Assembly: GCF_023255755.1 (NCBI RefSeq)
Contig: NZ_JAGDVS010000164.1
Location: 1 to 52,270, forward strand
DNA length: 52,270 nt
Source: Acidithiobacillus sp.
Lineage (GTDB): Bacteria; Pseudomonadota; Gammaproteobacteria; Acidithiobacillales; Acidithiobacillaceae
Reading direction: 5' to 3'
Position 1 is the first letter of the stretch. Each line of letters opens with the position of its first letter. The position numbers and the translations under genes are program-made. Shown piece after piece: positions 1 through 52,168 of this stretch. The notes beneath the pieces are model-generated. The model searched no databases. It saw only the letters and a program-made list of their open reading frames with translations, and was not told the DNA's origin.

Positions 1-869
1 CAGAAGCACTCTTGCTTGCCATTTTGGTGCGGGGAATATGGGAGTGTGGTCCGGTGCAGCACCCCCAGCATGGCCAGCCCGTTGGTGGTTTCCTCGGCCA
101 CCATGGCGGCGCCATTGTCGGTCATCAGCGCCCGTGGCAGGCCGCGCTTCATGAAGGCCTGGCAGAGGCCGTGGATGAGGCTCTCGGCGGTCTCGTCCAG
201 ATACCATTGCAGGTGGCAGAGCAGCCGCGAGTGATCGTCGATGATCCCCAGCAGCATGGGTGTCTCCCAGGTGCCGGCGCGGGTCAGCACCTTGCGGGAG
301 CCATGGTGGAAATCCAGATGCCAGAGGGCGGCGGTGTGTTCTACCTCATAGCTGCGCACTTCCAGCCGTTCCAGTCGGTCCCGGGCGGCGATCGCACCGA
401 CGGCGGCGCGTTTCGGCCGCGACTGCCGGAACAGGCCATGTGCCTTGAGATAGCGGCGGATCGTCGGGTAGGACGGAAGCGTCACGTCATGCCCCTGCAG
501 GGCGGACTGCAGATTGTCGTAGTGCAACTGGGCCGTCCAGCCCGGATGCTCCCGGTATTGGGTGGTCAGCGTCTCGATCACCCGTGGCGTGATACTCGGG
601 AACTGGCCGACGTTACCGTGTAACCGATTACGCAAGGTGATGACCGGATTCTGGGCAGTTCGGCCCAGGTAATACCAGCGCTCCAGGGTGGAGAATCCAA
701 ACTGGACTGGTTCACCGGTGAGCGGATGACGCCACGACCGGGCGGCCAGCGCCTTCAATGCCAGGGCCAGTTCCCCTGGGGCCGGTGGTGCCGCCAGCAA
801 GGGGCCGATGATCGCAAAGCGCAACAATGCCCAGCGATCCCGTTGGGGGGAGTCGATACGGGTCTTCAT
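1..869 (-). CDS. DDE integrase-core transposase (IS481-like), truncated by the left window edge
   Basis: Minus-strand frame from ATG at 869 stays open to base 1: MKTRIDSPQRDRWALLRFAIIGPLLAAPP...WHLDFHHGSRKVLTRAGTWETPMLLGIIDDHSRLLCHLQWYLDETAES...LMTDNGAAMVAEETTNGLAMLGVLHRTTLPYSPHQNGKQECF. D-D motifs and PHQNGKQE are typical of an rve integrase core. Absent from the ORF track because it has no stop in the window. Confidence 0.88.
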   Translation of the reverse strand, partial: MKTRIDSPQRDRWALLRFAIIGPLLAAPPAPGELALALKALAARSWRHPLTGEPVQFGFSTLERWYYLGRTAQNPVITLRNRLHGNVGQFPSITPRVIETLTTQYREHPGWTAQLHYDNLQSALQGHDVTLPSYPTIRRYLKAHGLFRQSRPKRAAVGAIAARDRLERLEVRSYEVEHTAALWHLDFHHGSRKVLTRAGTWETPMLLGIIDDHSRLLCHLQWYLDETAESLIHGLCQAFMKRGLPRALMTDNGAAMVAEETTNGLAMLGVLHRTTLPYSPHQNGKQECF

Positions 870-1002
870 GGTCAGGTCTCCAGAGGTGGTGCCGCCCAGG
901 GCAGCACGGGGGACCCAGCTTACAAACCCTCGGCCAGGGTGACACTTGCCAAGTTCTGCGGGAAATCTGCAACCCTCATTCCGCGGGATTTTTACCCCTG
1001 GT

Positions 1003-1593
1003 TTACCCCTGGCGGATCGTCAGCGGCGTGAGCAGTGCCAAACCGTCCAGCACGGCAGCAACGGGTGGACCCGCAAACCGGGCCAGCAGGCTGAGTGGCA
1101 GATCTTCCCGGTGGACCGGCGGCAGATAGCAGGCGACTTCCGCCTTCCAGAGGGAGGTCAGCGGGAAGTCCTGCCTCCACCAGTCTCGCCAGCGCCGCAG
1201 GGTGCGTCCGGGCACGTCGAGCAAAGCGCAAACCGCCTGGGCGCCCGGTGTTCTGGCGGTCAGCCGTCCGGCCATCAGCAGGATCACCAGGGCCAGATAG
1301 ACCCGGCGCCCGAAAAACCGCACGGAGGGTGATGTTCTGCGCTTGCGGCAGTGGCTGCAGCAGAAACTGAAGCGCGAGGCGTACCGCATTCTGAAATCCC
1401 GTAAACAGCCTCTGGGCTTGCGGGGGTAGTCCGCCCGATGCCACTTCCCACCACAGGCACACCGAGTGGCCCTGGCTTCTTCGGCAAGGGCTTCATCAAC
1501 GCGGTACAACAACTGAAATATTTTGGGATCATGCAGAAGGTTGTGGCACACTGACGGGGTCCTTTTCTTGGTCGGAAAGTGACACTCCCCCAA
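1003..1593 (-). CDS. IS companion protein with zinc-binding-like Cys motifs and HTH-like segment, upstream of and co-oriented with the transposase
   Basis: 196-aa ORF with CxC/CxxC (CACGGKW, CCSHCRKR) and a GRTLRRWRDWW helix-turn-helix-like segment; precedes the transposase on the same strand. Confidence 0.5.
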   Translation of the reverse strand: MGECHFPTKKRTPSVCHNLLHDPKIFQLLYRVDEALAEEARATRCACGGKWHRADYPRKPRGCLRDFRMRYASRFSFCCSHCRKRRTSPSVRFFGRRVYLALVILLMAGRLTARTPGAQAVCALLDVPGRTLRRWRDWWRQDFPLTSLWKAEVACYLPPVHREDLPLSLLARFAGPPVAAVLDGLALLTPLTIRQG

Positions 1594-1648
1594 CAGGCGC
1601 GTTTGTTCAAGTTCTTCGAGGGGGTTTACCCCCAGCCCCTCACGCTAC

Positions 1649-2077
1649 GTGACCGTCAGCGCGTCTAAAGCCATCAATATCTTTGACCGTACTCAGGTGA
1701 CCATGAGTAATCGGAGGTTTGAGATGTTTACGATTCGCCAAATCCTGGTACTGATGCGCCAAGGTGATAGGGACAGGGAGATCGCCCATTCCGGACTCAT
1801 GGGGCGCAAGAAGTTAGGCGTATTACGTCATCAAGCAGCACTGCACGACTGGCTGGACCCCCAGCAGCCTTTACCCGACGACGGTGAACTCGCTGCCCTG
1901 CAGCATCAGCGCAAGCAGGCCGTGCCCAACCAGTGTGTCTCCACCCTCAAAGAACATGAGGAGCGCATTGCCCGATGGTCAGGAGAAGGCATACAGGGCA
2001 CCACTATTCACGCTGCTTTGGTACGTAATCACGGATACACTGGCAGCTATTCCGCAGTAAAGCGCGCGTTACGATTC
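1649..2077 (+). mobile_element. istA: Truncated IS21-family element: left end plus N-terminal part of istA
   Basis: MFTIRQILVLMRQGDRDREIAHSGLMGRKKLGVLRHQAA...LKEHEERIARWSGEGIQGTTIHAALVRNHGYTGSYSAVKRAL resembles the IstA N-terminus; after about 2077 the frame runs antisense to an unrelated gene remnant, so homology ends there. Confidence 0.7.
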
Positions 2078-2245
2078 GGGGTTGTCTTTCAACAGTTCGA
2101 CGTACAGGCGATTCAGGCGGCTGGTGGCCCGGATGTCAAAGGCTTCAAGGAAGGTGTAGGGGAACTCTGCGGGGTCAAAGGGCCGCTCCGCGAGGTCGGT
2201 GATGGCTTGTTCGATTTCTACGGCGTTCTCATGGGCGTGAATTCC
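2075..2245 (-). pseudogene. Remnant of an MmeI-like (type IIL R-M) DNA methyltransferase N-terminus
   Basis: Minus-strand translation HAHENAVEIEQAITDLAERPFDPAEFPYTFLEAFDIRATSRLNRLYVELLKDNPES*; two blocks recalled from MmeI-like N-terminal regions are directly fused; no ordinary start codon. Confidence 0.5.
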
Positions 2246-2665
2246 TCATGCACCCTTCCAAGGGTTGATGACGGCCACGCCTGCCGCTTCATAGGGCGAT
2301 GTGTCGCGTGATGCCACGATGAATCCCCGCGATGCTGCAACGGCCGCGATGTAGCCGTCTGGCGTCGGGAAGCCGCGCCCGCCGTTCTTGGCCGTCACGG
2401 CCAGGTCGGCATAGTGGCGCGCCGCATCCGTATCGAAGGGCAGGACCCGATCCTTGAACAGCTCCAGCAGTTCGGTCAGGGCGCGGTCGAGCATGTTCTT
2501 GCGCTTGCCCGCCAGCAGCGCCCGGATGCCAAACAGCAACTCGGCCAGCGTGACGCTCGACAGATACAAGGTTTCCGCCGCCTGGTCGTTCAGCCAGGCC
2601 CTCACGGCCGCGTCTGGCTCTGGCTTCATCGCCTCGGAAACGACGCTGGTATCCAGGACGATCAT
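2246..2665 (-). CDS. PIN-domain toxin, VapC/FitB family
   Basis: MIVLDTSVVSEAMKPEPDAAVRAWLNDQ...LYLSSVTLAELLFGI...TPDGYIAAVAASRGFIVASRDTSPYEAAGVAVINPW, a classic FitB-like PIN domain. Confidence 0.92.
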   Translation of the reverse strand: MIVLDTSVVSEAMKPEPDAAVRAWLNDQAAETLYLSSVTLAELLFGIRALLAGKRKNMLDRALTELLELFKDRVLPFDTDAARHYADLAVTAKNGGRGFPTPDGYIAAVAASRGFIVASRDTSPYEAAGVAVINPWKGA

Positions 2666-2920
2666 TCAGTCGAAGCGCAACGGTTTGGCCGGCGTCTTGT
2701 CGCGCACACTCTCGAAAACGGCGAAATCTTCATTGGTCAGACCGATCTTGCGGCCGATGGCGGCCAGGGCTTCGCCCAAGCGCACGCGCTTCTCCGGCTT
2801 GACCACGGCCGCCAGAATCTCGCGCACCTCCGCTTCCATGCTGCGGCCGTGTTGGGCCGCCCGCACGCGCAAAGCGCGATGCACGTCATCCGGCACATTC
2901 CTTACAGTCAGGATTGCCAT
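2666..2920 (-). CDS. FitA-like ribbon-helix-helix antitoxin
   Basis: MAILTVRNVPDDVHRALRVRAAQHGRSMEAEVREIL is a FitA/Arc-type RHH N-terminus; ends directly before the PIN toxin start (TGA-ATG). Confidence 0.9.
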   Translation of the reverse strand: MAILTVRNVPDDVHRALRVRAAQHGRSMEAEVREILAAVVKPEKRVRLGEALAAIGRKIGLTNEDFAVFESVRDKTPAKPLRFD

Positions 2921-3092
2921 AATTCAATACTCCTCATTTGCTTTCTGTGACTGCAATCACAGAACTATGCAGTCATCCACGCAAGACTGCGTCAAGCTCC
3001 ACGCCCCTTCCTACCCTGGCGTCTCACCTTCTTGGCCTCCATCTGCGCCCGTAGCCGCGCCTCGCGCTGCTCCAATTCGGATGGCGCCGGCT

Positions 3093-3479
3093 TCAGGTGG
3101 CGTGAACCGGCTCGCTCTTGCCCCCCAGCGTCAGCAGGATCATGCGCAGCGCCAGCCGGATGGTCGGATAGGTCGCCACCGACTCCATCTGCCATGCCAT
3201 CAGCCGGATCTCCAGCGGTGACAAGGCGCGATCCTTCGGCACGAAAGCCGCAATCGACGCGGCGCCCAAATCCTTGGCCGGGTTGTCCACCTTCTCGCCG
3301 TGCTGGATGGCGAAGGCATAGACCTGCTTCACGATGTCACGGATGTGGACCGCGGTAGCGGGCGCACCGCGTGCCTTCACCTTGTTGCAGAGGGCGCGCA
3401 GGTCATCAGCGGTGATTTCGTTGAGCTGCCGGTTCTGGAAGGCCGGCGGAATGTCCCTATCGACGATGCTCTTGCGCAT
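3093..3479 (-). pseudogene. Tyrosine integrase fragment (core-binding region of a P4-like integrase)
   Basis: VDRDIPPAFQNRQLNEITADDLRALCNKVKARGAPATAVHIRDIVKQVYAFAIQHGEKVDNPAKDL...LSPLEIRLMAWQMESVATYPTIRLALRMILLTLGGKSE; both N-terminal arm and catalytic domain are missing. Confidence 0.75.
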
Positions 3480-3743
3480 CGCCGCGGAAGGTGACGGTAC
3501 CGGTAGGCGATACCGTCACGTACATCCCATCGCGGTCAGAAGTCTTATAAGTCTTTGACTTAGACTTTAGATAGTGAACGGGAGGGTCTTAATCCGGCCT
3601 CCGGTTCTTGCCGCCACTTTTAACGCCAACCTGTTCCTCTAGCCGACGATAGCCATCAATAGCTGCTGTGACGTATTTATTTATAACTCAAAATGTTACG
3701 GCAGTTTTTCGATACCTGGCGATAGTCCCCGAAGGACGTCAGT

Positions 3744-5288
3744 TCACTCCCACTCGATGGTGGCCGGCGGCTTGGATGAAATATCGTAAACCACGCGATT
3801 GATCCCGGCGACCTCGTTGATGATCCGGGTGGAGATGCGCCCCAGCACTTCATAGGGTATGTGCGCCCAGTCTGCGGTCATGCCATCCGCCGACTCCACC
3901 GCGCGCAGGGCGATGGTTTCATCATAGGTCCGCGCGTCGCCCATCACGCCGACACTGCGCACCGGCAGCAATACCGCAAAAGCCTGCCAGAGGCGGTCAT
4001 ATAGTCCGGCGTCACGGATCTCTTCCATGACGATACGGTCGGCACGGCGCAGGACTTCCAGGCGATGTTCATCAATCGCCCCCAGACAACGGATAGCCAG
4101 ACCAGGCCCCGGGAAGGGCTGACGCCGGATTACTTCTTCGGGCATGCCCAGCTCACGGCCGAGTTCCCGCACTTCGTCCTTGAACAGCTCACGCAAAGGT
4201 TCGACCAGTTGCAGGTGCATGCGCTCCGGCAAGCCACCCACGTTATGGTGAGACTTGATCGTCGCGCTGGGACCCTTAAACGAAATAGACTCGATCACGT
4301 CGGGATAAAGGGTACCCTGGGCCAAAAAGTCGGCGCCTTCCAGATGCTTCGACTCTTCCTCAAAAATCTCGATGAACAGATTACCGATGGCCTTGCGCTT
4401 CTTTTCGGGATCAGTGACATCCGCCAGTACATCCAGAAAACGCTGTCGGGCATCCACCACCTGCAGGGGAATCTGAAAGTAATTGCGAAAGACCGTCGCC
4501 ACCTTCTCCGCTTCCCCAAAGCGCAACAGCCCGTTATCCACAAAAATGCAGGTGAGCTGGTCGCCGATGGCGCGATGAATGAGCACGGCCGCTACGGCCG
4601 AATCCACCCCGCCGGAAAGCGCGGCAATGACCCGGCCCTTACCCACCTGGGTACGGATCGTCGCCACTGCCGTGTCCACATAAGAGTGCATGGTCCAATC
4701 ACCCGTGCAGCCGCATACGCCGCGCACGAAGGCCGTGAGCATCTCCGCACCACGGGGGGTATGGGCGACCTCCAAATGAAACTGCACGCCATAGAAGTTG
4801 CGCGCAGGGTCGCCAATAGCCGCCAGCGGCGAATTGGCACTGCTGGCCAGGACTCGGAAACCATCGGGCACGGACTCGATCCGGTCGCCGTGACTCATCC
4901 AGACTTCTTCGGCAGTGTCTGCCGCCCCGAAGGGTAAGAACGGGCCGACCGCTTCTGTTATCTGAATGTGCGCCCGGCCATATTCCCGATGCTCCGCCTT
5001 GCCGACTCTTCCGCCCAGCAAATGCGCCATCAACTGCAGGCCGTAGCAAATACCGAGGATCGGCAGGCCCAGGGTAAACACGTCCAGATCAACCATGGGA
5101 GCGTCGACATCATGTACCGACGATGGTCCGCCGGACAGAATGATCCCCTGCGCTTGCCACGCACGAATGTCCGCGAGTGGCATATTATAGGGATGAATTT
5201 CACAGTAAACGTGCGCTTCGCGCACCCGCCGCGCAATAAGCTGGGTGAACTGCGAACCGAAATCGAGAATCAGGATACGTTCTTGCAT
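3744..5288 (-). CDS. guaA: GMP synthase (glutamine-hydrolyzing)
   Basis: [54 protein letters not shown]-terminal KPPATIEWE. Confidence 0.99.
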
Positions 5289-5291
5289 GGT

Positions 5292-6758
<1,467 letters not shown>

Positions 6759-34806: not shown

Positions 34807-34905
34807 GGAAATTTCCTTCGTAGCAGTAAAACGGCGACATAAAGGCCCGAACGTCTATACTCATGCTAACATTTTCTGGCAGGCGTGTACGCAAAGGAGC
34901 AAGCA

Positions 34906-35826
34906 ATGAGTAACAAAAGCATCGGGATGGTCGGCTTAGGTCGAATGGGTGCCAATATGGCGCGGCGTCTGCACATCAAGGGTCTGGAAGTCACCGTTTA
35001 CAATCGCCATACCGAAAAATCCACTGATCTGGCTAAAGAAACAGGCATGCACGCTGCCGAAAGTCTGGAAGCCCTCGTTCAGGCCTTGCCCAGCCGCCGG
35101 ATCGTCTGGCTCATGCTCCCCGCCGGAGAGGCCACCCAGAGTCATATCGACTCCATTCTTCCCTTATTGAGCAAGGGCGACATACTGATTAATGGCGCGA
35201 ATGCCTTTTATGAGGACTCCGTCGCCCAATCCAAAAAAGTGGAGGCGGCGGGGGTGCATTACATAGACGCCGGTGTTTCGGGCGGTGTCTGGGGTCTACA
35301 AGAGGGTTATGCCCTGATGGTCGGTGGCAGCCAGGAAGCCGTAGCTCAGGTAACGCCTTTTCTGGAGGCACTGGCACCGGGCACCGACAAAGGCTGGTTG
35401 CACTGTGGCCCCGTCGGCAGCGGCCACTTTGTCAAAATGGTCCACAATGGCATCGAATACGGCATGATGCAGGCCCTCGCCGAAGGCTTCGCCATTTTGC
35501 AAGGCAAAACCGAATTCGGACTGGACCTCGCCAAGGTGGCCGAAATGTGGCGCTATGGCAGCGTCGTCCGCTCCTGGCTTCTTGATCTCACTGCTGACAC
35601 CCTCGCCAAAGATCAGGTGCTCGCCGACATCGCGCCTGTAGTAGCGGACTCCGGCGAAGGTTTGTGGACCGCGCAGGCCGCTCTCGCACTGAAAATTCCC
35701 GCGCCGGTCATTACCCTCGCCTTGCAAATGCGTTGGGCCTCGCAGGGGCGCGACGACTACGCCGCCAAACTCCTGGCGATGATGCGTAACCAGTTTGGCG
35801 GCCATGCCGTGCAAAAGGAGGACTGA
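34906..35826 (+). CDS. gnd: 6-phosphogluconate dehydrogenase, short decarboxylating form
   Basis: IGMVGLGRMGANMARRLHIKGLEVTVYNR, YIDAGVSGGVWGLQEGYALMVGG, CGPVGSGHFVKMVHNGIEYGMMQALAEGF. Confidence 0.94.
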   Translation: MSNKSIGMVGLGRMGANMARRLHIKGLEVTVYNRHTEKSTDLAKETGMHAAESLEALVQALPSRRIVWLMLPAGEATQSHIDSILPLLSKGDILINGANAFYEDSVAQSKKVEAAGVHYIDAGVSGGVWGLQEGYALMVGGSQEAVAQVTPFLEALAPGTDKGWLHCGPVGSGHFVKMVHNGIEYGMMQALAEGFAILQGKTEFGLDLAKVAEMWRYGSVVRSWLLDLTADTLAKDQVLADIAPVVADSGEGLWTAQAALALKIPAPVITLALQMRWASQGRDDYAAKLLAMMRNQFGGHAVQKED

Positions 35827-37290
35827 ATGAGTAACTGTAATTGTCAGTTCGTCATTTTTGGGGCTACCGGCGATCTCGCCAGCAAAAAACTTCTCCCCGC
35901 ACTTTATCATCTGCATTGTGCAGGCAGAATGCCTGAAGAACTGCGCATTCTCGCCTTCGGCCGACGACCTTGGGATGACAAAACCTGGCAGGACTTTCTC
36001 CATGAGCAACTGGAAACCTATGCCAGCAATTATCACGCGGACCACTTTGCCGATTTTTGCAGGCATTTTGAATATGTGCGCGGTGAAATCCATGAGCCGG
36101 AATCTTACGCCAGACTCCACAGCCTGCTGACCCCGGCAGGGGCCGAAAAACCAGCAGGTACCATTTTTTATCTCGCTATTCGTCCCACCGATTTTATTCC
36201 GGTGGTACAACGCCTTTCCGAGGCAGGATTCAATCAGGATGGCGACTACCGCATCGTCATTGAAAAGCCCTTCGGGGATGATCTGGAAAGTGCCGTACAA
36301 CTCAATGAGCAGTTGCATCGTCACTTCCACGAAGACCAGATATATCGTATCGATCATTATCTTGGCAAAGAAATTGTCCAGAATCTGCTGGTTTTTCGTT
36401 TCGCCAACCTGGCGATTGAAGCGATATGGAACCGTAATTACATCGACCACGTCCAGATAACGGTGGCCGAAGATATCGGCATTGAAAATCGGGCTGGCTA
36501 TTATGATCAGGCCGGTGCTCTGCGCGATATGCTGCAAAATCACCTGATGCAGGTTCTCACTCTGGTCGCCATGGAACCACCACCTTCGCTGGAGGCAGAT
36601 AGCCTGCGCGACGAAAAAGTCAAAGTCCTGCGCTCAATCCGCCCTATTCCCAAATCGGCTGTTACCGCCTATGCCATGCGCGCGCAGTATGGGCCTGGCG
36701 TTGTCCACGATAAACACGTCCCCGGCTATCAGGACGAGGCGGGTGTTGAGCCCAACTCGGTAACAGAAACCTTTGTCGCCGCCAAGTTTTACATTGATAA
36801 CTGGCGCTGGCGCGGCGTGCCCTTTTATTTGCGTACCGGCAAACGTCTTACTGCCAAGACCTCCAGCGTGGCCATCCGCTTCCGTCATACACCGCAACAA
36901 CTCTTCCGCGAAACCAGTATCGAACGTATTGAGCCCAACTGGATATTGCTCTCTCTGGAACCGGAGAGCCTTAAAATTGAAATCCAGGTCAAGGAACCGG
37001 GTCTGGAAATGCGCGTTCGCCCCGTACAACTCAACGCATCTTACCGCAAAGATGGTGAGCAGGAGCTGGATGCCTATGAGGCCCTGCTGCTAGACGTGAT
37101 GCAAGGCGACAAAGCCCTGTTCATCCGCTTTGACGAGGTCGAATGGGCCTGGCGCGTCGTCGACCCTATCATCAAGTCCTGGGGACGGGAGACCGACTAC
37201 ATCCTCACCTACCCCTCTGGCTCCTGGGGACCAGACGAGGCCACCCGGATCATGGACAAAGAAGACCACTACTGGCGCAATCAGATCTGA
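35827..37290 (+). CDS. zwf: Glucose-6-phosphate 1-dehydrogenase
   Basis: VIFGATGDLASKKLLPALYHLH, YRIDHYLGKEIVQNLLVFRFANL, GVPFYLRTGKRL. Confidence 0.98.
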   Translation: MSNCNCQFVIFGATGDLASKKLLPALYHLHCAGRMPEELRILAFGRRPWDDKTWQDFLHEQLETYASNYHADHFADFCRHFEYVRGEIHEPESYARLHSLLTPAGAEKPAGTIFYLAIRPTDFIPVVQRLSEAGFNQDGDYRIVIEKPFGDDLESAVQLNEQLHRHFHEDQIYRIDHYLGKEIVQNLLVFRFANLAIEAIWNRNYIDHVQITVAEDIGIENRAGYYDQAGALRDMLQNHLMQVLTLVAMEPPPSLEADSLRDEKVKVLRSIRPIPKSAVTAYAMRAQYGPGVVHDKHVPGYQDEAGVEPNSVTETFVAAKFYIDNWRWRGVPFYLRTGKRLTAKTSSVAIRFRHTPQQLFRETSIERIEPNWILLSLEPESLKIEIQVKEPGLEMRVRPVQLNASYRKDGEQELDAYEALLLDVMQGDKALFIRFDEVEWAWRVVDPIIKSWGRETDYILTYPSGSWGPDEATRIMDKEDHYWRNQI

Positions 37291-38832: not shown

Positions 38833-38943
38833 AGAGTTACCTCATGGTTCGACGGCCTGTATTATGCCACATTTAGCCGCGTAAACTTGTATTTTACCGT
38901 ATCCAGTGTTACAAGAGTGCAACATGAAGCCGTTTTCCCGTCC

Positions 38944-40083
38944 ATGTTGCACCGGAGCACCGAGTTGGCCACTATTGTCTCACGAAAACAGAAGGATGGT
39001 ACCCTTCGCCATACTGCAACAATTCGCCTCAAGCGCAATGGGGAAGCCTTCCATTGTGAGAGCCGGACGTTCCACAAGAAAGCGACCGCCAAAGCCTGGG
39101 CATTAGAACGCGAACAGGCGCTACGTGAAAACCCCAAAGAGGCTGTGCGTCCCTCATCGGCGTTGCCCATCGGCAAGATGATCGATCGTTACATTGAGGA
39201 AAAGCAAGCGGTCGAGCCGCTAGGTCGTAGCAAGTTGCAGCACCTGCTCCTATTGCGGAGACTGCCCATCGCGGAATGTATGGCATCCGAAGTTGATGCG
39301 CCGCGCCTTATCTCCCACATTCGTAGTCGCCGCGTGTCCGGAACAGGGCCATCCACCGTGCTCAACGATCTGATCTGGTTGCGGGTAATCTATCGCTATG
39401 CACGCGCGGCATGGGGCATCCCGCTGTCCATGGAAGCCATTGGAGACGCGACGGAGCTTTGCCGGGCCGAGCGACTGGTAGCGAGATCACGGAAGAGAAA
39501 GCGACGGCTCAAACGGGAAGAGATAGAGAGAATCTGCGAGCGATTTTTATCACTGGGCCACCGGAAATCCTCGCCACCCATGTATCTCATTTTTTGGTTC
39601 GCCATCTATTCATGCCGCCGGCAATCGGAAATCATGTCCATGCGACTTTCGGACTACGATCAGGACCGTGGAATCTGGCTTGTGCGCAACATCAAAAACC
39701 CTGGCGGATCGCAGGGGAACCATCAATGGATGCACATTACGGATGCCCTTCTGCCCGTCATTAACGCAACGATAGAGGACGCTGATCTGGTGGCACGCCG
39801 AAAAACGATGCAGGATGACCGCCTGTTTCCGTTTGATCCAAAAACCATCGGGTCATACTGGACGCGGCACATGCAAATCCTGGGAATCGAAGATCTGCAT
39901 TTTCATGATTTGCGGCACGAGGGTTGTTCACGGTTGGCGGAAGATGGGCTGAGCATCCCGGATATTCAGCGTATCAGCCTGCATGAGTCATGGAGTAGCC
40001 TGCAAATCTATGTAAACAGGGATGCCCGCAGTCAATCGTTTACACGCGCCGAGTTTGAGCCTTCAGTTACCCAAAAGACGTAA
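38944..40083 (+). CDS. Tyrosine recombinase/integrase
   Basis: Box I IYSCRRQSEIMSMRLSDYD, HDLRHEGCSRLAEDG, LHESWSSLQIYVN (catalytic Tyr). ORF extends to TTG at 38887; ATG at 38944 preferred. Confidence 0.9.
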   Translation: MLHRSTELATIVSRKQKDGTLRHTATIRLKRNGEAFHCESRTFHKKATAKAWALEREQALRENPKEAVRPSSALPIGKMIDRYIEEKQAVEPLGRSKLQHLLLLRRLPIAECMASEVDAPRLISHIRSRRVSGTGPSTVLNDLIWLRVIYRYARAAWGIPLSMEAIGDATELCRAERLVARSRKRKRRLKREEIERICERFLSLGHRKSSPPMYLIFWFAIYSCRRQSEIMSMRLSDYDQDRGIWLVRNIKNPGGSQGNHQWMHITDALLPVINATIEDADLVARRKTMQDDRLFPFDPKTIGSYWTRHMQILGIEDLHFHDLRHEGCSRLAEDGLSIPDIQRISLHESWSSLQIYVNRDARSQSFTRAEFEPSVTQKT

Positions 40084-40755: not shown

Positions 40756-41883
40756 TCAAATTCTTCGAACGCCGCGGAAAATATTTCGAAACGGGGGTCT
40801 ACCATCTTCCGATCTGTATAGCCACATGGCATCATTCTGCATGTCCAGTATACATGAAAGCTCCTGTCTATAAAGATTCGTGGATCTCTTACCGTTTAAA
40901 ATGGCCTTCATATTTTTTGCCGCTGCGCTAGCTCGAAGTTGGGCCATGTGGGCTTGATGTGGCACCCATGGCGGTGGGTTTTCATGATTAGCGCAATCTC
41001 CCGCGGCAAAAACATGAGGCAGCCCCTTTACCTGCCCATATTTATCTACATCAATATGGCCACCAATAGACACGGGAAGGCATGACTTCTGCACAAGCGA
41101 TGGTCCCGTTATTTCAGGAGAATAGAGGACCAAATCGGCCTTCCTGAACCTGCCATCCTTATCAGCCATCCCTCCATCTAAAAATTCTACTGGTGCATAT
41201 CCATCGTCAAGGATAATCCCGCGCTCACGCAGTCGATCGGTTATCGCGCCTTTCTCTCCCGGACTTCTATCTGGGGAGAAGAAATGAATCTCAAAATTAT
41301 TTCTTACCCCCCTTTCTCTCAATGCGTAATCCAGGAGGCAGGCGCATTCATACATGGGGCCGGGACGTCCGGCAACGAAACCGTCCATCCGGTTAATCTT
41401 GTAGCCGACATATATGATACCAGCACTCAGGGATTCCAGCTTCTTTACAAATACGTCCATCTCATCCGGACCATAACATGGCGAATATGTGTATTCTCCT
41501 GTTCCAGGAATGTCGTCTTTTCAAAAGGATGGCCATATACCAATAAATAGATAATCATTCTTGTATTCTCCATCATGGGTAATCACGGTCCGTCCGCCGT
41601 CCTGTATATCGACAACTGTACCCTCAATAAAGCGAATGTTTCGTCGTCTTAGGAATGGACGAATATCAATGGTGACATCTGCTTTGTTTCGCTTCTTTGT
41701 GAGAAATTCAGGAATTGCTGGAAAATAAATGAATTTACCATTTCCGATGACTGTGATGTCGTATCGGGAATATATCCTTCGAAAAAAATAGGCGATGACA
41801 GGAAAGATGGGGATGGCGAGAAAATACCTAACGAAAAACAGGGATGCGAACCCATTGCCTATGATGGTGATTTGTTTCTTCAT
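40756..41883 (-). pseudogene. SQR/NDH-2-like FAD-dependent oxidoreductase interrupted by an in-frame TGA
   Basis: N-part MKKQITIIGNGFASLFFVRYF... ends at TGA (41521-41523); same frame continues KDDIPGTGEYTYSPCYGPDEMDVFVKKLES...GLPHVFAAGDCANHENPPPWVPHQAHMAQLRASAAAKNM to 40756. Confidence 0.75.
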
Positions 41884-43947: not shown

Positions 43948-43978
43948 TTGACACCGTACTATAGTACGGCGGTTATAG
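43948..43978 (+). promoter_or_regulatory. MerR-type operator/promoter of the mer operon
   Basis: TTGACA-CCGTACTATAGTACGGCGG-TTATAG: 19-nt spacer containing a perfect palindrome CCGTACTATAGTACGG. Confidence 0.85.
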
Positions 43979-44027
43979 TTCACCGTGAACGATGATGTTA
44001 TCCGGATAAGCGGAGGTTCTGAACAAC

Positions 44028-44447
44028 ATGAATGTGAATGAAATCAAATCGGATCCATCGGAGAACGTTTGTGCCACAAGCGCATTGAATACGCCGAGCC
44101 TCCGACCGAAAGGGCTTTGGGGTTTGCTGGTGGCTGTCGTGGTGGGTTTCCTGGCATCGGCCTGCTGTGTTTTGCCGTTGTTGCTGATTGTGGCCGGTGT
44201 CGGTGGCGCATGGATGGCCAACTTGCGAATCCTAGATCCCTACGCTCCTTACCTGGATGTGATTGTTCTGATATTTCTGGGATACGCCCATATACAAAAT
44301 TATCGCGAGCAAAAAGCTGCGGCCTGTGGCTCCTGTTCGTCAGGGGGGCGGTTAGGCCGGTGGAAAACGCCTCTTTTGTGGATGGGCACTGTTTTTGTGA
44401 TTGTTATGCTGGCTCTGCCGCATGTGTTGCCGCGTTTGCTGATGTAG
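44028..44447 (+). CDS. merT: Mercuric transporter MerT
   Basis: GLLVAVVVGFLASACCVLPLLLIVAGVGGAWMANLRILDPYAPYLDVIVLIFLGYA; TM Cys pair and MerT topology. Confidence 0.92.
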   Translation: MNVNEIKSDPSENVCATSALNTPSLRPKGLWGLLVAVVVGFLASACCVLPLLLIVAGVGGAWMANLRILDPYAPYLDVIVLIFLGYAHIQNYREQKAAACGSCSSGGRLGRWKTPLLWMGTVFVIVMLALPHVLPRLLM

Positions 44448-44484
44448 AAATTTTATCTTTCCATTAAATTAAGGAGTGAAAAGT

Positions 44485-46546
<2,062 letters not shown>

Positions 46547-46564: not shown

Positions 46565-47218
46565 ATGCGCCTCGATCATGTGGAAAGAGGACTGGAAAAT
46601 CTGCAGAGGGATTTTCCTCTGCAGGCCAGGATAAGCAACGAGCCGGAGCTGATCCAGAGAACCCACACACAGATTTTGCGGTTCTGGATCGTCAGGAGTA
46701 ATCCACCTTCGGCACAGCACTTCCCGGAGGCCGCATTGCGGAGGCTGATTGCACTGGACGCTGTGGTGTCCAGTGTAGAGGGACTGGGCGCTTATCCGTT
46801 CAGCGCCAAAGAAACCTCTATCCGTGTAGCCCATGGGAAACACCGGCCTACATTTGCGATGTGTGCCGTCGATGCGCTCGCGATCCCACTTTTCTGGAAG
46901 TCATTGGTACGCCTGGAGAGCCGGTGCCACGCCTGTGGCGTCGGCATTGAACTGGATCTGGGTCCCTGCGTGGATAGTCCATGTGCGGTGGATGCCCCGC
47001 TTGTGTTTATGCACTTTCTGAATCGTCAGACGCGCACGGAACATCCCGCATGTAGCGGGCTGTGTACGGCTATTTATTTTCTCTGCCCAGATTGCGCCAG
47101 GAACCTGACAGACACTGTGTACACGGTGCAAGAGGCGCAGTGTATAGGACAGATGTTTTTCGCCTTCCAGACCACGCTCCTGCAAGCCTTTCCTGAGCGG
47201 CAAGAGAACTGGTCATGA
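46565..47218 (+). CDS. MerB-like protein (alkylmercury lyase family)
   Basis: RPTFAMCAVDALAIPLFWKSLVRLESRCHACGVGIEL and LCTAIYFLCPDCAR; placement of C-x-x-D and a downstream Cys resembles the MerB catalytic residues. Confidence 0.68.
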   Translation: MRLDHVERGLENLQRDFPLQARISNEPELIQRTHTQILRFWIVRSNPPSAQHFPEAALRRLIALDAVVSSVEGLGAYPFSAKETSIRVAHGKHRPTFAMCAVDALAIPLFWKSLVRLESRCHACGVGIELDLGPCVDSPCAVDAPLVFMHFLNRQTRTEHPACSGLCTAIYFLCPDCARNLTDTVYTVQEAQCIGQMFFAFQTTLLQAFPERQENWS

Positions 47219-47682
47219 ACAGGAACCCCCTGCAACCAGATTATCGCATCGGCGAGGTGGCCAAAGCCGCTGGTGTGCATGTGGAAACAGTGCGTTTTTA
47301 CGAACGGCAAGGCCTTATTCCTCAACCGGTCAAACCCCATCTCGGCATCCGGCGCTATCCACAGGACACCATCGCGCGCATTCGTTTTATCAAGCACGCA
47401 CAAATGCTTGGCTTTACGTTGCAGGAAGCGCGTGAATTGCTAGCGCTGCGGATCAATGACGCGCAAGCCTGCGATACGGTGCATCTTCAGGCACAAATCA
47501 AACTGTCTTCCGTGCACGAGAAAATTCAGGCATTGCAGAGCCTGGAAGTCACCTTAATGCGATTTATAAAGGATTGCGAGAATGAACGCTCCGGCAGCTA
47601 TCATGGTTGCCCTATTTTGCAGTCCCTGGAAACCGTCGAAGTCATCACGAATGCATCGGTTTCGAAGGAAGGACGAAAATGA
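47215..47682 (+). CDS. merR: Mercury-responsive MerR regulator
   Basis: YRIGEVAKAAGVHVETVRFYERQGLIPQP; three Cys (ACDTVH, KDCENE, HGCPIL) at MerR Hg-ligand-like spacing. Confidence 0.93.
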   Translation: MNRNPLQPDYRIGEVAKAAGVHVETVRFYERQGLIPQPVKPHLGIRRYPQDTIARIRFIKHAQMLGFTLQEARELLALRINDAQACDTVHLQAQIKLSSVHEKIQALQSLEVTLMRFIKDCENERSGSYHGCPILQSLETVEVITNASVSKEGRK

Positions 47683-49787
47683 GCGATAAATCCATTTCCT
47701 ATGGGCACGCTTTGGGCATGCCAGGACTTGCACCCGACTGGGCGCCGTCCCATAAGACGGGAGTGGGAACGGCTTTGAGTGCACGCTCACGCGTGTGGTT
47801 CACCATAGCCGATGGCGTGCTCACCGAATGCTATTATCCCCGAGTGGATACTCCCAATATGCGGGATCTCCAGTTTTTAATATTGGATGCCAACGGTGGC
47901 TTTCAGGAAGAACGTCGCGATTTGGTGCACACCGTGCGCTGGATCGAGGAAGGGGTACCCGCCTATCTCATCATGAGTGAAGATCCCGGCAAACGGTTTC
48001 GTTTAACCAAACAAATATGTACCGATTCCGAACGCGATAGTCTACTCATCCACCTGCATTTCGAAGTCTTGTCTCCAGAAGAGGGTCCTTATCGCCTCTT
48101 CCTGTTATGGGCGCCGCAGATTGGAAACACAGGCATGGGCAATCACGCCGTCTGTCAACGCGAACCCGATGGAACCGATTGGTGCCTCGCCTGTCGTGAC
48201 GATATTACCGTCGCGCTCACGGGAACCACACCTTTTGTGCGCATGTCTGCAGGCTATGTGGGTGCCTCGGATGGCTGGCAGGACCTCCATTACCACCATG
48301 ATATGCACTGGACCTTCTCCGAAGCAGGACCTGGTCATGTGGCGCTGACTGCAGAGCTGGATCTCGGTGTGGGCGAGTGCACCCTGGCTCTGGGCTTTGG
48401 TGCGTCCCATGAACAAGCGATGGCTCACGCCAGATTTTCCCTGACCATGGGATTCATTTCAATCCTAAGGGAATACAGCCGCGAGTGGCTCAGCTATCAG
48501 ACGGATCTTCTCGACTTGTCTCCCTCCAGTGAGGATCACGGCAAATTATATCGTCGCAGCGTGGCCATTCTTCGTTGCCATTTCGACAAGGAGGAACCAG
48601 GGGCCGGTGTGGCTTCTCTTTCGATTCCCTGGGGTGAACAAAGCGACGCCACCAGCGCTCAAGGGGGTTACCATCTGGTCTGGCCGCGCGACCTGTATCA
48701 TCTCAGCATGGGGCTGTTGGCCGCTGGAGATTGCGATACGCCTGTGCAAACCTGGCATTATCTGCAGCGTCGGCAAAATGCCGATGGATCCTGGCCACAG
48801 AATTTCTGGGTCGATGGAACGCCATATTGGCGCGGGTTGCAGCTGGATGAAGTGGCTTACCCCATCTTGCTCGCCTGGCGTTTATTCCAGGAAAGCCTGA
48901 TCCCCGATCCGAGCGATACCGTCCATCGAGCTGCGGATTTTCTGGTCAGTCAGGGACCGGTCACGCCGCAGGATCGCTGGGAGGAGAATCGCGGTTACAG
49001 TCCGCAAACCCTGGCCGTGGTGGTGGCGGCCCTACGTGCCGCAAGTCAGCTCTGTGACAGCAAGAAGGGAAAAGCCTGGGGTTGTAATTACCATCAGGTG
49101 GCAGATTCCTGGGGCCAGCGCATTGAGGAATGGACCTTTACCCATTGCGGGCGACTGCTCCCAGGACACCCTGATCATTATGAGCGTATCGCACAGATCC
49201 CGGTTATCGATACCGGAGAGCACCTTCCCGAATGCCGGATATTTCTCCCCATTCGATACCTTCCGCCGGAGGCCATACATAGTCATTCCCAGTGCTGTGT
49301 CGTAGATGGCGGGTTCCTGTCACTCGTCCGTCTGGGCTTGCGGCGACCGGATGATCCCCATGTTCTGAAAACCTTGCCGGTCTGGGATGGGGTTTGTCGC
49401 CAGGAAACACCTTGCGGTCCCTGCTGGTATCGCTATAACGGCGACGGATATGGGGAACACGGCGATGGTGACCCATTCGATGGGCTTGGCCAAGGTCGTT
49501 TATGGCCATTGCTAACCGGCGAGCGAGGGCATTTTGCCATAGCCGCAGGAGAGGAAGTGACTTCCTATATCCGTGCCCTGGAGTGTTTTGCCAATGAGGG
49601 AGGTTGTATCCCGGAGCAGATATGGGATCAGGCAGCCATACCTGCAAAAGGCTTGTATCCCGGGCGTGGCACCGGCTCGGCCACGCCTTTGGCGTGGGCT
49701 CATGCCGAGTATATACGGCTTCTGCGATCAAGGAAGGATGGCGTGCCTTTCGATAGGCCCGCTTTCAACGCCGAAGGTTTGGCATGA
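47679..49787 (+). CDS. GH15 glucan 1,4-alpha-glucosidase (glucoamylase-like)
   Basis: GHALGMPGLAPDWAPSHKTGVGTALSARSRVWFTIADGVLTECYYPRVDTPNMRDLQFLI, HLVWPRDLYHLSMGLLAAGD, GSWPQNFWVDGTPYWRGLQLDE, PEQIWD. Confidence 0.93.
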   Translation: MSDKSISYGHALGMPGLAPDWAPSHKTGVGTALSARSRVWFTIADGVLTECYYPRVDTPNMRDLQFLILDANGGFQEERRDLVHTVRWIEEGVPAYLIMSEDPGKRFRLTKQICTDSERDSLLIHLHFEVLSPEEGPYRLFLLWAPQIGNTGMGNHAVCQREPDGTDWCLACRDDITVALTGTTPFVRMSAGYVGASDGWQDLHYHHDMHWTFSEAGPGHVALTAELDLGVGECTLALGFGASHEQAMAHARFSLTMGFISILREYSREWLSYQTDLLDLSPSSEDHGKLYRRSVAILRCHFDKEEPGAGVASLSIPWGEQSDATSAQGGYHLVWPRDLYHLSMGLLAAGDCDTPVQTWHYLQRRQNADGSWPQNFWVDGTPYWRGLQLDEVAYPILLAWRLFQESLIPDPSDTVHRAADFLVSQGPVTPQDRWEENRGYSPQTLAVVVAALRAASQLCDSKKGKAWGCNYHQVADSWGQRIEEWTFTHCGRLLPGHPDHYERIAQIPVIDTGEHLPECRIFLPIRYLPPEAIHSHSQCCVVDGGFLSLVRLGLRRPDDPHVLKTLPVWDGVCRQETPCGPCWYRYNGDGYGEHGDGDPFDGLGQGRLWPLLTGERGHFAIAAGEEVTSYIRALECFANEGGCIPEQIWDQAAIPAKGLYPGRGTGSATPLAWAHAEYIRLLRSRKDGVPFDRPAFNAEGLA

Positions 49788-50792
49788 CGCCCGCCAAAAC
49801 CAGTGTTCATCCAGCACTTGCCGCAGATCCGAAGATCCAGAGAAATGCGGCACTCCACCTGGGTCTGGATATCGGTGGCACCAATCTTCGTTTAGGTGTT
49901 TTTCGTGGACTTCGACTGCTTTCAGAATATCGCACAGCGCCCGACCTCTCGGAAGTTTGCAGGCACGCCGGAAATCGCGAAGACGCGCAGCGACTGGTGG
50001 TGCGTCTGGTTGGCGATGCCATCGCAGATGCTTTGTGCAAGCACAAGCAAGTGCAGCACATCGGCATGGGCATTCCTGGTTTTGTCGATCCCGGCAATAG
50101 CCTGTTGCTGCAGTCACCCAACTTACAGCATCTGGAAAATACAGACTTGATTTCACTCCTGCAGAAGCGATTTAGCCTGCCGGTGTGCCTGGTAAACGAT
50201 GCCAATGCAGCTGCCTATGGCGAATATTTACTGGCCCGACCACATCACTCAGACCTTAGACATTTGCTCTATGTGGGGTTGGGGACCGGCATAGGCGGCG
50301 GACTGGTTCTGAATGGACAAGTCTATCCTGGTGCATACGGGAGCGCCCTGGAAATCGGCCATTTGATTGTGGAACCCAACGGACGTGTTTGTGGGTGTGG
50401 TAATCGGGGCTGCCTGGAACAATATGCTTCGGCGAGTGGAGTAAAGCTTAGTTACACAGAATATACCGGCTGTTATAAGACCGCTCGCGATATAGGACAA
50501 ATGGCGGATGCCGGAGACCGTTCGGCGCGTCAGGCAAGCTGGTCGCGCCCTTGGCCAAGCCCTCGCACATTTGCAGAAAATTCTGGATGCCGATTTGGTC
50601 TGTATCGGCGGAGGGCTCATCGGCTCTTGGCCATGGATGGCCCCAGCCGTTCAAAGCGCATTGGATGCGGACCTGATTCCTATTCTGAGGGGACGGACAA
50701 GGATAACCCCCTCATCCAGCGCAGATTGCGCTGGCATGTTGGGCGCGGCATATATCGGATTAGAAACGGCAGAGGTGCCCCATGACGAATAA
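49784..50792 (+). pseudogene. ROK-family sugar kinase with apparent frameshift
   Basis: Frame 1 LHLGLDIGGTNLRLGVF...GLGTGIGGGLVLNGQVYPGAYGSALEIGHLIVEPNGRVCGCGNRGCLEQYAS, then frame 2 GRALGQALAHLQKILDADLVCIGGGLIGSWPWMAPAVQSALDADLI; switch near 50530. Confidence 0.8.
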
Positions 50793-51231
50793 TGTAAACG
50801 CTTCTGATCGTTCTTTTTCTGATATTTACAATGGGATACTGATTGGAGTTCGGCAATGGAGTGATTGGGATACTTTGACAAGGTATCTACGCGAAAACAA
50901 CCATGGACAATGGTATGTATACTACCTGAACGCCACAGTCCCTAACATGCCACTCTCCGTGGCAACGTTTGATAAATTCATTCAGGAGATAGATCGCCTG
51001 CTGCGCACCGATCATGACGAGCCCTACTTGGGCATCGTTTATTTCGATGATCCTGGAAATCCAAAATTTATCAAAATATACGACCCCAACAATCTGGGGG
51101 CATCCTGTGGGTGCAGCGGTAAAATCATCCTCCCCGGATGGATAATAAGTTTGGTCGCGCCAGAGGACCTGTCAGCCCATGCCGTAGTTCCTGAGGGGCG
51201 GAGAAGGTGGTGGGCAAGAATATTTACATGA
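50782..51231 (+). CDS. Hypothetical protein
   Basis: 149-aa ORF MTNNVNASDRSFSDIYNGILIGVRQWSDWDTLTRYL..., start overlaps the kinase 3' end; family not recognised. Confidence 0.65.
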   Translation: MTNNVNASDRSFSDIYNGILIGVRQWSDWDTLTRYLRENNHGQWYVYYLNATVPNMPLSVATFDKFIQEIDRLLRTDHDEPYLGIVYFDDPGNPKFIKIYDPNNLGASCGCSGKIILPGWIISLVAPEDLSAHAVVPEGRRRWWARIFT

Positions 51232-51434
51232 AAACGCTGCAGATATTGCGCTCTTCTCAATTGCGACGCACCGTCTTGATTGCGGTCATTGTAGGTACTC
51301 TACTGACTTTGGTGAATGAAGGCGGGGAGATGTTTTTAGGGGTTGTAACTATCGGCATTACATTGAAAATAATTTTCAACTATCTGACTCCTTTGGTTGT
51401 GGCGAATCTCGGATGGTTTTTTTCACAAAATTGA
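51228..51434 (+). CDS. NrtS-like small membrane protein
   Basis: LRRTVLIAVIVGTLLTLVNEGGEMFLGVVTIGITLKIIFNYLTPLVVANLG; two TM helices, NrtS-like pattern. Confidence 0.6.
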   Translation: MKTLQILRSSQLRRTVLIAVIVGTLLTLVNEGGEMFLGVVTIGITLKIIFNYLTPLVVANLGWFFSQN

Positions 51435-51649: not shown

Positions 51650-52168
51650 ATGAACAAGCGAATATTCAAAATATGGGCAAGCGTTATTTTCGTATTCCTG
51701 ATGCCAGAAATGGCTTATGCGGCCCCCGTTGTCACTATCTCCCATCCCGTCCTCGCAGGCATATCACTCCCAGATCTGTCTGGAGGTTTGGTGAACTTAA
51801 GCCATCTTGAAGGAAAAGTAATGGTGATTAATTTGTGGGCAAACTGGTGTCCAGTTTGCCATCATGAGGCACCGGATTTTGCTCGTCTCCACCGGAAACT
51901 TGGATCTAAAGTTCGCTTCGTTGGTATAGCGCTGGATGGCAAAAAATCTGCCCAGAAATTTATACACGATGAGCACCTTAATTATCTGACGCTCTTGGCG
52001 GGGTCGCATCCTGGCAAGGTGCTCTCAGCGATTGGGGATAGAAATGGAATGCTTCCCTATACGCTTATCGTCGCTCCCGATGGACATGTTGTGCAACGTC
52101 ACCTGGGATTCTATCCGGCGCGCCAACTTTCAATAGAACTTAAGCGTGTCATGCAAGGCCGTCACTAG
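51650..52168 (+). CDS. TlpA/ResA-like thioredoxin-fold protein
   Basis: Signal peptide, ISLPDLSGGLVNLSHLEGKVMVINLWANWCPVCHHEAPDFARLHRKL with a WCPVC active site. Confidence 0.92.
   Translation: MNKRIFKIWASVIFVFLMPEMAYAAPVVTISHPVLAGISLPDLSGGLVNLSHLEGKVMVINLWANWCPVCHHEAPDFARLHRKLGSKVRFVGIALDGKKSAQKFIHDEHLNYLTLLAGSHPGKVLSAIGDRNGMLPYTLIVAPDGHVVQRHLGFYPARQLSIELKRVMQGRH

Follow-up and report, generated by a model that had tools for sequence, protein, structure and literature searches.

We have found, in a stretch of 52,270 nucleotides from Acidithiobacillus sp. (assembly GCF_023255755.1, contig NZ_JAGDVS010000164.1; this whole stretch is called the window here), a mercury resistance (mer) operon that runs on into a gene for a GH15 glucoamylase and a frame-broken gene of the ROK sugar kinase family. 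Glucoamylases of this type recur in mer operons of four further genomes, where they form a single clade spread over four lineages of the mercuric reductase MerA. We consider it probable that the arrangement is a mercury-responsive operon with a recruited accessory module, a mercury-induced supply of reduced nicotinamide adenine dinucleotide phosphate (NADPH) for MerA from internal glucan, of which the induction, the substrate, the flux and the benefit are all predictions. A little less firmly, we lean towards the wider proposal that mer operons of chemolithotroph-related Proteobacteria may carry their own mercury-induced NADPH generator, made of a dedicated glucoamylase lineage and sometimes a glucokinase or Zwf and Gnd, which would burn stored glucan via the oxidative pentose phosphate route.

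The mer operon of the window and its glucoamylase

All genes of the operon are on the plus strand. The operator/promoter (43948-43979) was read directly and consists of a TTGACA -35 element, the dyad CCGTACTATAGTACGG (43954-43969) and a TATAGT -10-like element; CCGTACNNNNGTACGG has a single zero-mismatch match in the whole window, which is the operator dyad, between the -35 and the -10. It is followed by merT (44028-44447; Pfam MerT, 1.3e-18), merP (44476-44838, with the start uncertain between GTG at 44476 and ATG at 44485; NCBIfam MerP, 3.4e-14, and Pfam HMA), merA for the mercuric reductase (44843-46546; NCBIfam PRK13748, 2.6e-252, with 838.6 bits for a cut-off of 600, and NCBIfam MerA, 562.8 bits for a cut-off of 454), a merB-like gene for an organomercurial lyase (46565-47218; Pfam MerB, 7e-11, over the gathering score) and merR (47215-47682; NCBIfam MerR, 1.6e-38, under the TIGR02051 equivalog cut-off). 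The alignment of its product with the solved MerR 5crl indicated that the three mercury-ligand cysteines (equivalents of C82, C117 and C126) are all kept. After merR come the GH15 gene (47679-49787), the ROK gene (49784-50792), two genes for hypothetical proteins and one for a TlpA-like thioredoxin, in a chain of overlapping or near-adjacent genes. The ATGA overlaps reported in a preliminary description of this DNA, between the merR stop and the GH15 start (47679-47682) and between the GH15 stop and the kinase start (49784-49787), were both confirmed, and another one that had been missed there joins merB and merR (47215-47218). Since ATGA overlaps are common, these were dropped as evidence in their own right. 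In the window, as well as in two congeners (L036 and L037), the GH15 gene is located 3' of the mer operator and the preceding gaps are too small for a convincing terminator. Judging from this arrangement, the mer genes of the window and the GH15-ROK-hypothetical genes would be transcribed as one unit, induced by mercury.

The GH15 product combines a glucodextranase-type N-terminal domain (Pfam Glucodextran_N, 8.8e-92) with the GH15 domain (Glyco_hydro_15, 6.8e-29), the same domain architecture as the GH15 glucoamylase/glucodextranase structures 1lf6 and 1ug9 of the PDB, both of which it matched with E values of about 1e-141. The catalytic glutamate motifs RWEE and PEQIW are also conserved. It differs from these proteins in having no obvious signal peptide and in the cysteine set that distinguishes its clade (see below). 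The score against TIGR01535 was 699 bits, just under the cut-off of 742, and we predict a glucoamylase that would act on an alpha-glucan. The same genome carries a GH15 paralogue on contig C188; a genuine frame break in this housekeeping gene was ruled out, the apparent break being a run of 10 N.

Recurrence and phylogeny of the linkage

GH15 genes were searched for in 57 relatives, 369 class genomes, 399 phylum genomes and 385 genomes of another class. Only four others across these samples exceeded 60% identity to the GH15 of the window (L036, L037, L128 and L127), and with the window included five out of five are mer-linked and span three families. The other phylum and class samples held no GH15 above 47% identity, among plasmids there was neither a GH15 over 60% identity nor a near DNA match to the region, and viral contigs gave no match. 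The near-identical L036 and L037, of the same genus as the window and counted once, have the order merC-merA-GH15-merD, and in L036 a mer operator is present and GH15 overlaps merD by ATGA. In L128, from another family, the contig begins inside merA and continues with genes for a redoxin and a membrane protein, merD, merB, GH15, zwf and gnd. In L127, from a third family, GH15 lies directly 5' of merA. Linkage of mer and GH15 genes is therefore not unique to the strain and, as regards the conservation that the preliminary description had proposed to check, it is kept in kind, but the exact order merR-GH15-ROK was seen only here. The usual mer order in the genus is merT-P-A-(B)-R-trx, found at six loci in five genomes, whose MerA proteins share 75-80% identity with that of the window. 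Here the GH15, ROK and hypothetical genes stand between merR and trx, and must therefore have been inserted inside a pre-existing cluster.

MerA was found in 71 of the 369 class genomes. We took 72 other merA loci with up to 8 kb per side, many of these stretches ending at contig ends, and tblastn detected no GH15, ROK or zwf within about 8 kb of any of them in the class sample; for the gnd family there was one weak match of 28%. The linkage is thus more than chance, recurring as it does and yet absent from 72 other merA loci.

The five mer-linked GH15s form one clade with support of 96/93, and equally clustered arrangements were obtained in 0 of 500 label shuffles. No mer genes were found near the 31 GH15s outside this clade in the flanking stretches examined. 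In the tree of 83 MerAs, on the other hand, those accompanied by GH15 need four separate changes, forced by well-supported branches, and a single change was recovered in 0% of the bootstraps. One GH15 clade beside four MerA lineages indicates that a specialised GH15 line has been placed repeatedly in different mer operons, and the four changes indicate that it has been transferred between mer backbones following mer function and not one mer element.

These trees bear directly on the possibility that GH15 (and ROK) are passengers caught by a mobile mer island, with no contribution to mercury resistance. A single event of this kind predicts matching GH15 and MerA trees, contrary to what we found, and it does not account for the different positions of GH15, which is coupled to merR, merD, merB or zwf, or for the addition of zwf-gnd in L128. 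A tyrosine integrase gene located 5' of the metal-resistance region (38887-40083, plus strand; Pfam Phage_integrase, 3.7e-18) speaks for a passenger origin, as its product is 92% identical to the one beside the mer operon of a congener (L078:5520-6710). Several other features favour it too, and weigh at the same time against an NADPH supply for MerA. Few mer loci show the trait (3 of the 75 merA loci of the class sample), and the ROK gene is frame-broken in this assembly. Besides, the merA of L127 is interrupted by a frame break, and an operator-like site lies between GH15 and merA, which leaves GH15 upstream of it and not under its control, so that co-induction is not evident there. What weighs further against the NADPH supply is that ROK and zwf-gnd were each observed in a single mer operon. 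With the evidence of the trees, we regard a mere passenger as rather unlikely. The likeness of the two integrases, as an observation by itself, points to a mobile metal-resistance island.

The proposed NADPH supply and alternative functions

For each Hg(II), MerA uses one NADPH. The preliminary description had suggested that glycogen would be mobilised through the pentose phosphate route to provide this NADPH, and the comparison both supports and limits the idea: in favour are the merB-GH15-zwf-gnd order of L128, the GH15 clade in four MerA lineages and the zwf, gnd or sugar dehydrogenase neighbours of related GH15s, and against it is the lack of an intact mer-borne kinase in this assembly of the strain. 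Starting from the MerA requirement for NADPH (PMC12263811), the sequence of events would be as follows. MerR at the operator at 43.95 kb would induce merT-P-A-B-R, and read-through together with translational coupling would extend the induction to the GH15-ROK-hypothetical genes. The GH15, presumably cytosolic, would release glucose from an internal alpha-glucan, and a glucokinase, either the ROK of the mer operon, if unbroken, or else the housekeeping ROK glucokinase, would convert it to glucose-6-phosphate. Zwf and Gnd, housekeeping in the window strain and encoded in the mer operon in L128, would then oxidise glucose-6-phosphate and regenerate NADPH, which would serve MerA and probably also thiol repair.

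As the preliminary description had stated, the two NADPH-forming enzymes are encoded outside the cluster in the window (34885-37290): a gnd-type 6-phosphogluconate dehydrogenase gene (34885-35826, plus strand; Pfam) and zwf for glucose-6-phosphate dehydrogenase (35827-37290, plus strand; Pfam G6PD_C, 1.9e-119) are about 10-12 kb 5' of GH15. The GH15 gene of L128 shares an ATGA with zwf, gnd is 114 bp further, and the products of zwf and gnd both score over the NCBIfam cut-offs. The GH15s of this type that are not linked to mer often have zwf, gnd or sugar dehydrogenase genes as neighbours: some adjoin zwf (L122-L124), some gnd (L134 and L135) and one has both at some distance (L129), while those of the genus of the window adjoin genes for SDR and GMC oxidoreductases. 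The nearest outgroup to the mer clade, from an Armatimonadetes genome (L035, a contig of 6.6 kb, 1-6601, cut inside GH15), has a cassette of GH15, a CBM48-like open reading frame (ORF), ROK, a glucose-6-phosphate isomerase-like gene, HAD and gnd, in which the CBM48 and HAD labels are readings of the sequence only. The housekeeping ROK paralogue of the window strain, in turn, is located within a glgC-GH57-GH57-ROK glycogen operon. Because of L128, the neighbours of the non-mer GH15s, the L035 cassette and this glycogen operon, we conclude that the path from glucan to glucose, glucose-6-phosphate and the oxidative pentose phosphate route is a repeated theme in these gene neighbourhoods.

The same enzymes could instead serve a general mobilisation of carbon and energy during mercury stress, providing adenosine triphosphate (ATP), precursors and low-molecular-weight thiols and not NADPH for MerA specifically. 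GH15 and ROK alone feed glycolysis too, and there are thioredoxin- or redoxin-like genes within the same operons. However, the extra sugar enzymes recruited in L128 are the two NADPH-forming steps, and elsewhere this type of GH15 is linked to zwf and gnd, so that we give this explanation a low probability, marginally below that of a passenger.

We have also considered that the mer GH15 has gained a thiol- or metal-related role, as a mercury-binding or redox-controlled glucoamylase. Seven cysteines (490, 519, 539, 540, 573, 579 and 636) occur in every member of the mer clade but are missing from, or uncommon among, the 31 other GH15s, and the average number per protein is 14.2 vs 7.7. Most of these cysteines are also found in L035, not known to be mer-linked, and for this reason we take them as a trait of the clade and not as proof of an adaptation related to mercury. 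The catalytic motifs are intact, and a structure model (four sequences, predicted local distance difference test, pLDDT, of 51) was too poor to show clustering of the cysteines and was left unused. Such a role seems very improbable. The idea that the mer GH15 is a cysteine-poor isozyme hardened against mercury was ruled out, the clade being cysteine-rich. Finally, an assembly artefact joining mer and GH15, conceivable in a draft genome of 203 contigs with a contamination estimate of 4.3%, is extremely improbable and is refuted as a general account by the linkage in four further genomes, one of them a single contig.

An NADPH supply for MerA from stored glucan would be relevant for bacteria that oxidise iron and sulfur, for which NADPH is expensive to make, and for strains used in mercury bioremediation. 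Iron oxidisers obtain reduced pyridine nucleotide via uphill electron flow (PMC1142338), so a source of reductant based on stored carbon would help them. That GH15 has entered mer operons repeatedly, in one case along with zwf and gnd, suggests that the supply of reductant can limit mercury resistance and travel with it.

Known mer systems, the kinase gene and minor features

The genes of mer operons are usually described as serving uptake, regulation, lysis and reduction, with the reductant left to the host. Their known accessory genes comprise transporters, regulators, merB and genes for the synthesis of low-molecular-weight thiols, such as oah2 in Thermus (PMC8261052). The window has merT, merP, merA, merB, merR and the MerR operator in common with the canonical operon (merR-merTPAB and its merC/merD variants), merC and merD appear in the relatives, and what is added is GH15 plus ROK and, in L128, zwf-gnd. 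Judging from its gene order, L036 is probably the Acidithiobacillus ferrooxidans strain with a published mer locus. At that locus AFE2480 is listed as MerC, AFE2481 as MerA and AFE2483 as MerD, AFE2482 being left without a name (PMC2621215), an order that matches merC-merA-GH15-merD of L036. According to the legend of a supplementary figure, the metal-resistance operons of Acidithiobacillus include a glucan 1,4-alpha-glucosidase. The accessible portions of neither paper on the A. ferrooxidans locus report the GH15 clade, its presence in other families or a link with zwf-gnd. Within the literature searched, mostly without subscription journals and in part accessible only as extracts, we found no published interpretation of a mer-linked glucosidase; the known occurrence amounts to one drawn gene, and there appears to be no earlier report of the clade, of its distribution or of the link with zwf-gnd.

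The preliminary description had treated the ROK gene as a single open frame, but it had fused two halves whose frame is broken near 50495-50510. The N-terminal part (49784 to about 50500; Pfam ROK, 6.3e-46; TIGR00744, 3.1e-37, under the cut-off) is in a frame that ends at 50785, and the C-terminal part (about 50508-50792; Pfam ROK, 9.9e-8) is in the next one, ending at 50792. In the alignment with intact relatives, some 8 nucleotides are missing at the junction, which fits a small deletion, or else an error of the draft assembly. Of the overlap described between the kinase and the next gene (50782-50792), the start of the hypothetical at 50782 and the length of 11 bp stood, but the C-terminal ROK fragment alone takes part in it. 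A ROK glucokinase paralogue is encoded on contig C38 of the same genome. The N-terminal part of the mer copy is 48% identical to the ROK glucokinase of glycogen operons (L115), from which the mer copy differs in being frame-broken in this assembly.

The overlapping gene (50782-51231, plus strand) codes for a hypothetical protein of 149 amino acids that matched no curated family of Pfam or NCBIfam. It is a second copy of a conserved protein, the other copy being on contig C23, with homologues of 45-56% across most of the family (L098-L109 and L110:7067-7513); the one in L110 is located a few hundred bp 3' of a ROK gene. Next is an ORF for a small membrane-like protein of 75 amino acids (51207-51434, plus strand) with no match over cut-off, and then the gene for the TlpA/ResA-like thioredoxin (51650-52168, plus strand; Pfam AhpC-TSA, 2.9e-18), which in relatives is adjacent to merR. 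On the other side of the operon, a pyridine-nucleotide-disulphide oxidoreductase-like gene (40756-41883, minus strand) is apparently divided between two reading frames, which may be another frame break close to mer. In the mer region of genome G287 an ORF (L127:5026-5742, minus strand) scores as MerC in its N-terminal part and as a BufA2 bufferin-type metallophore in its C-terminal part, a possible MerC-bufferin fusion. Several families have, next to merA or the mer operon, a cysteine-rich protein with a YHS domain (68-74% alike; L225:5148-5516, L230:5346-5717 and L036:12692-13063).

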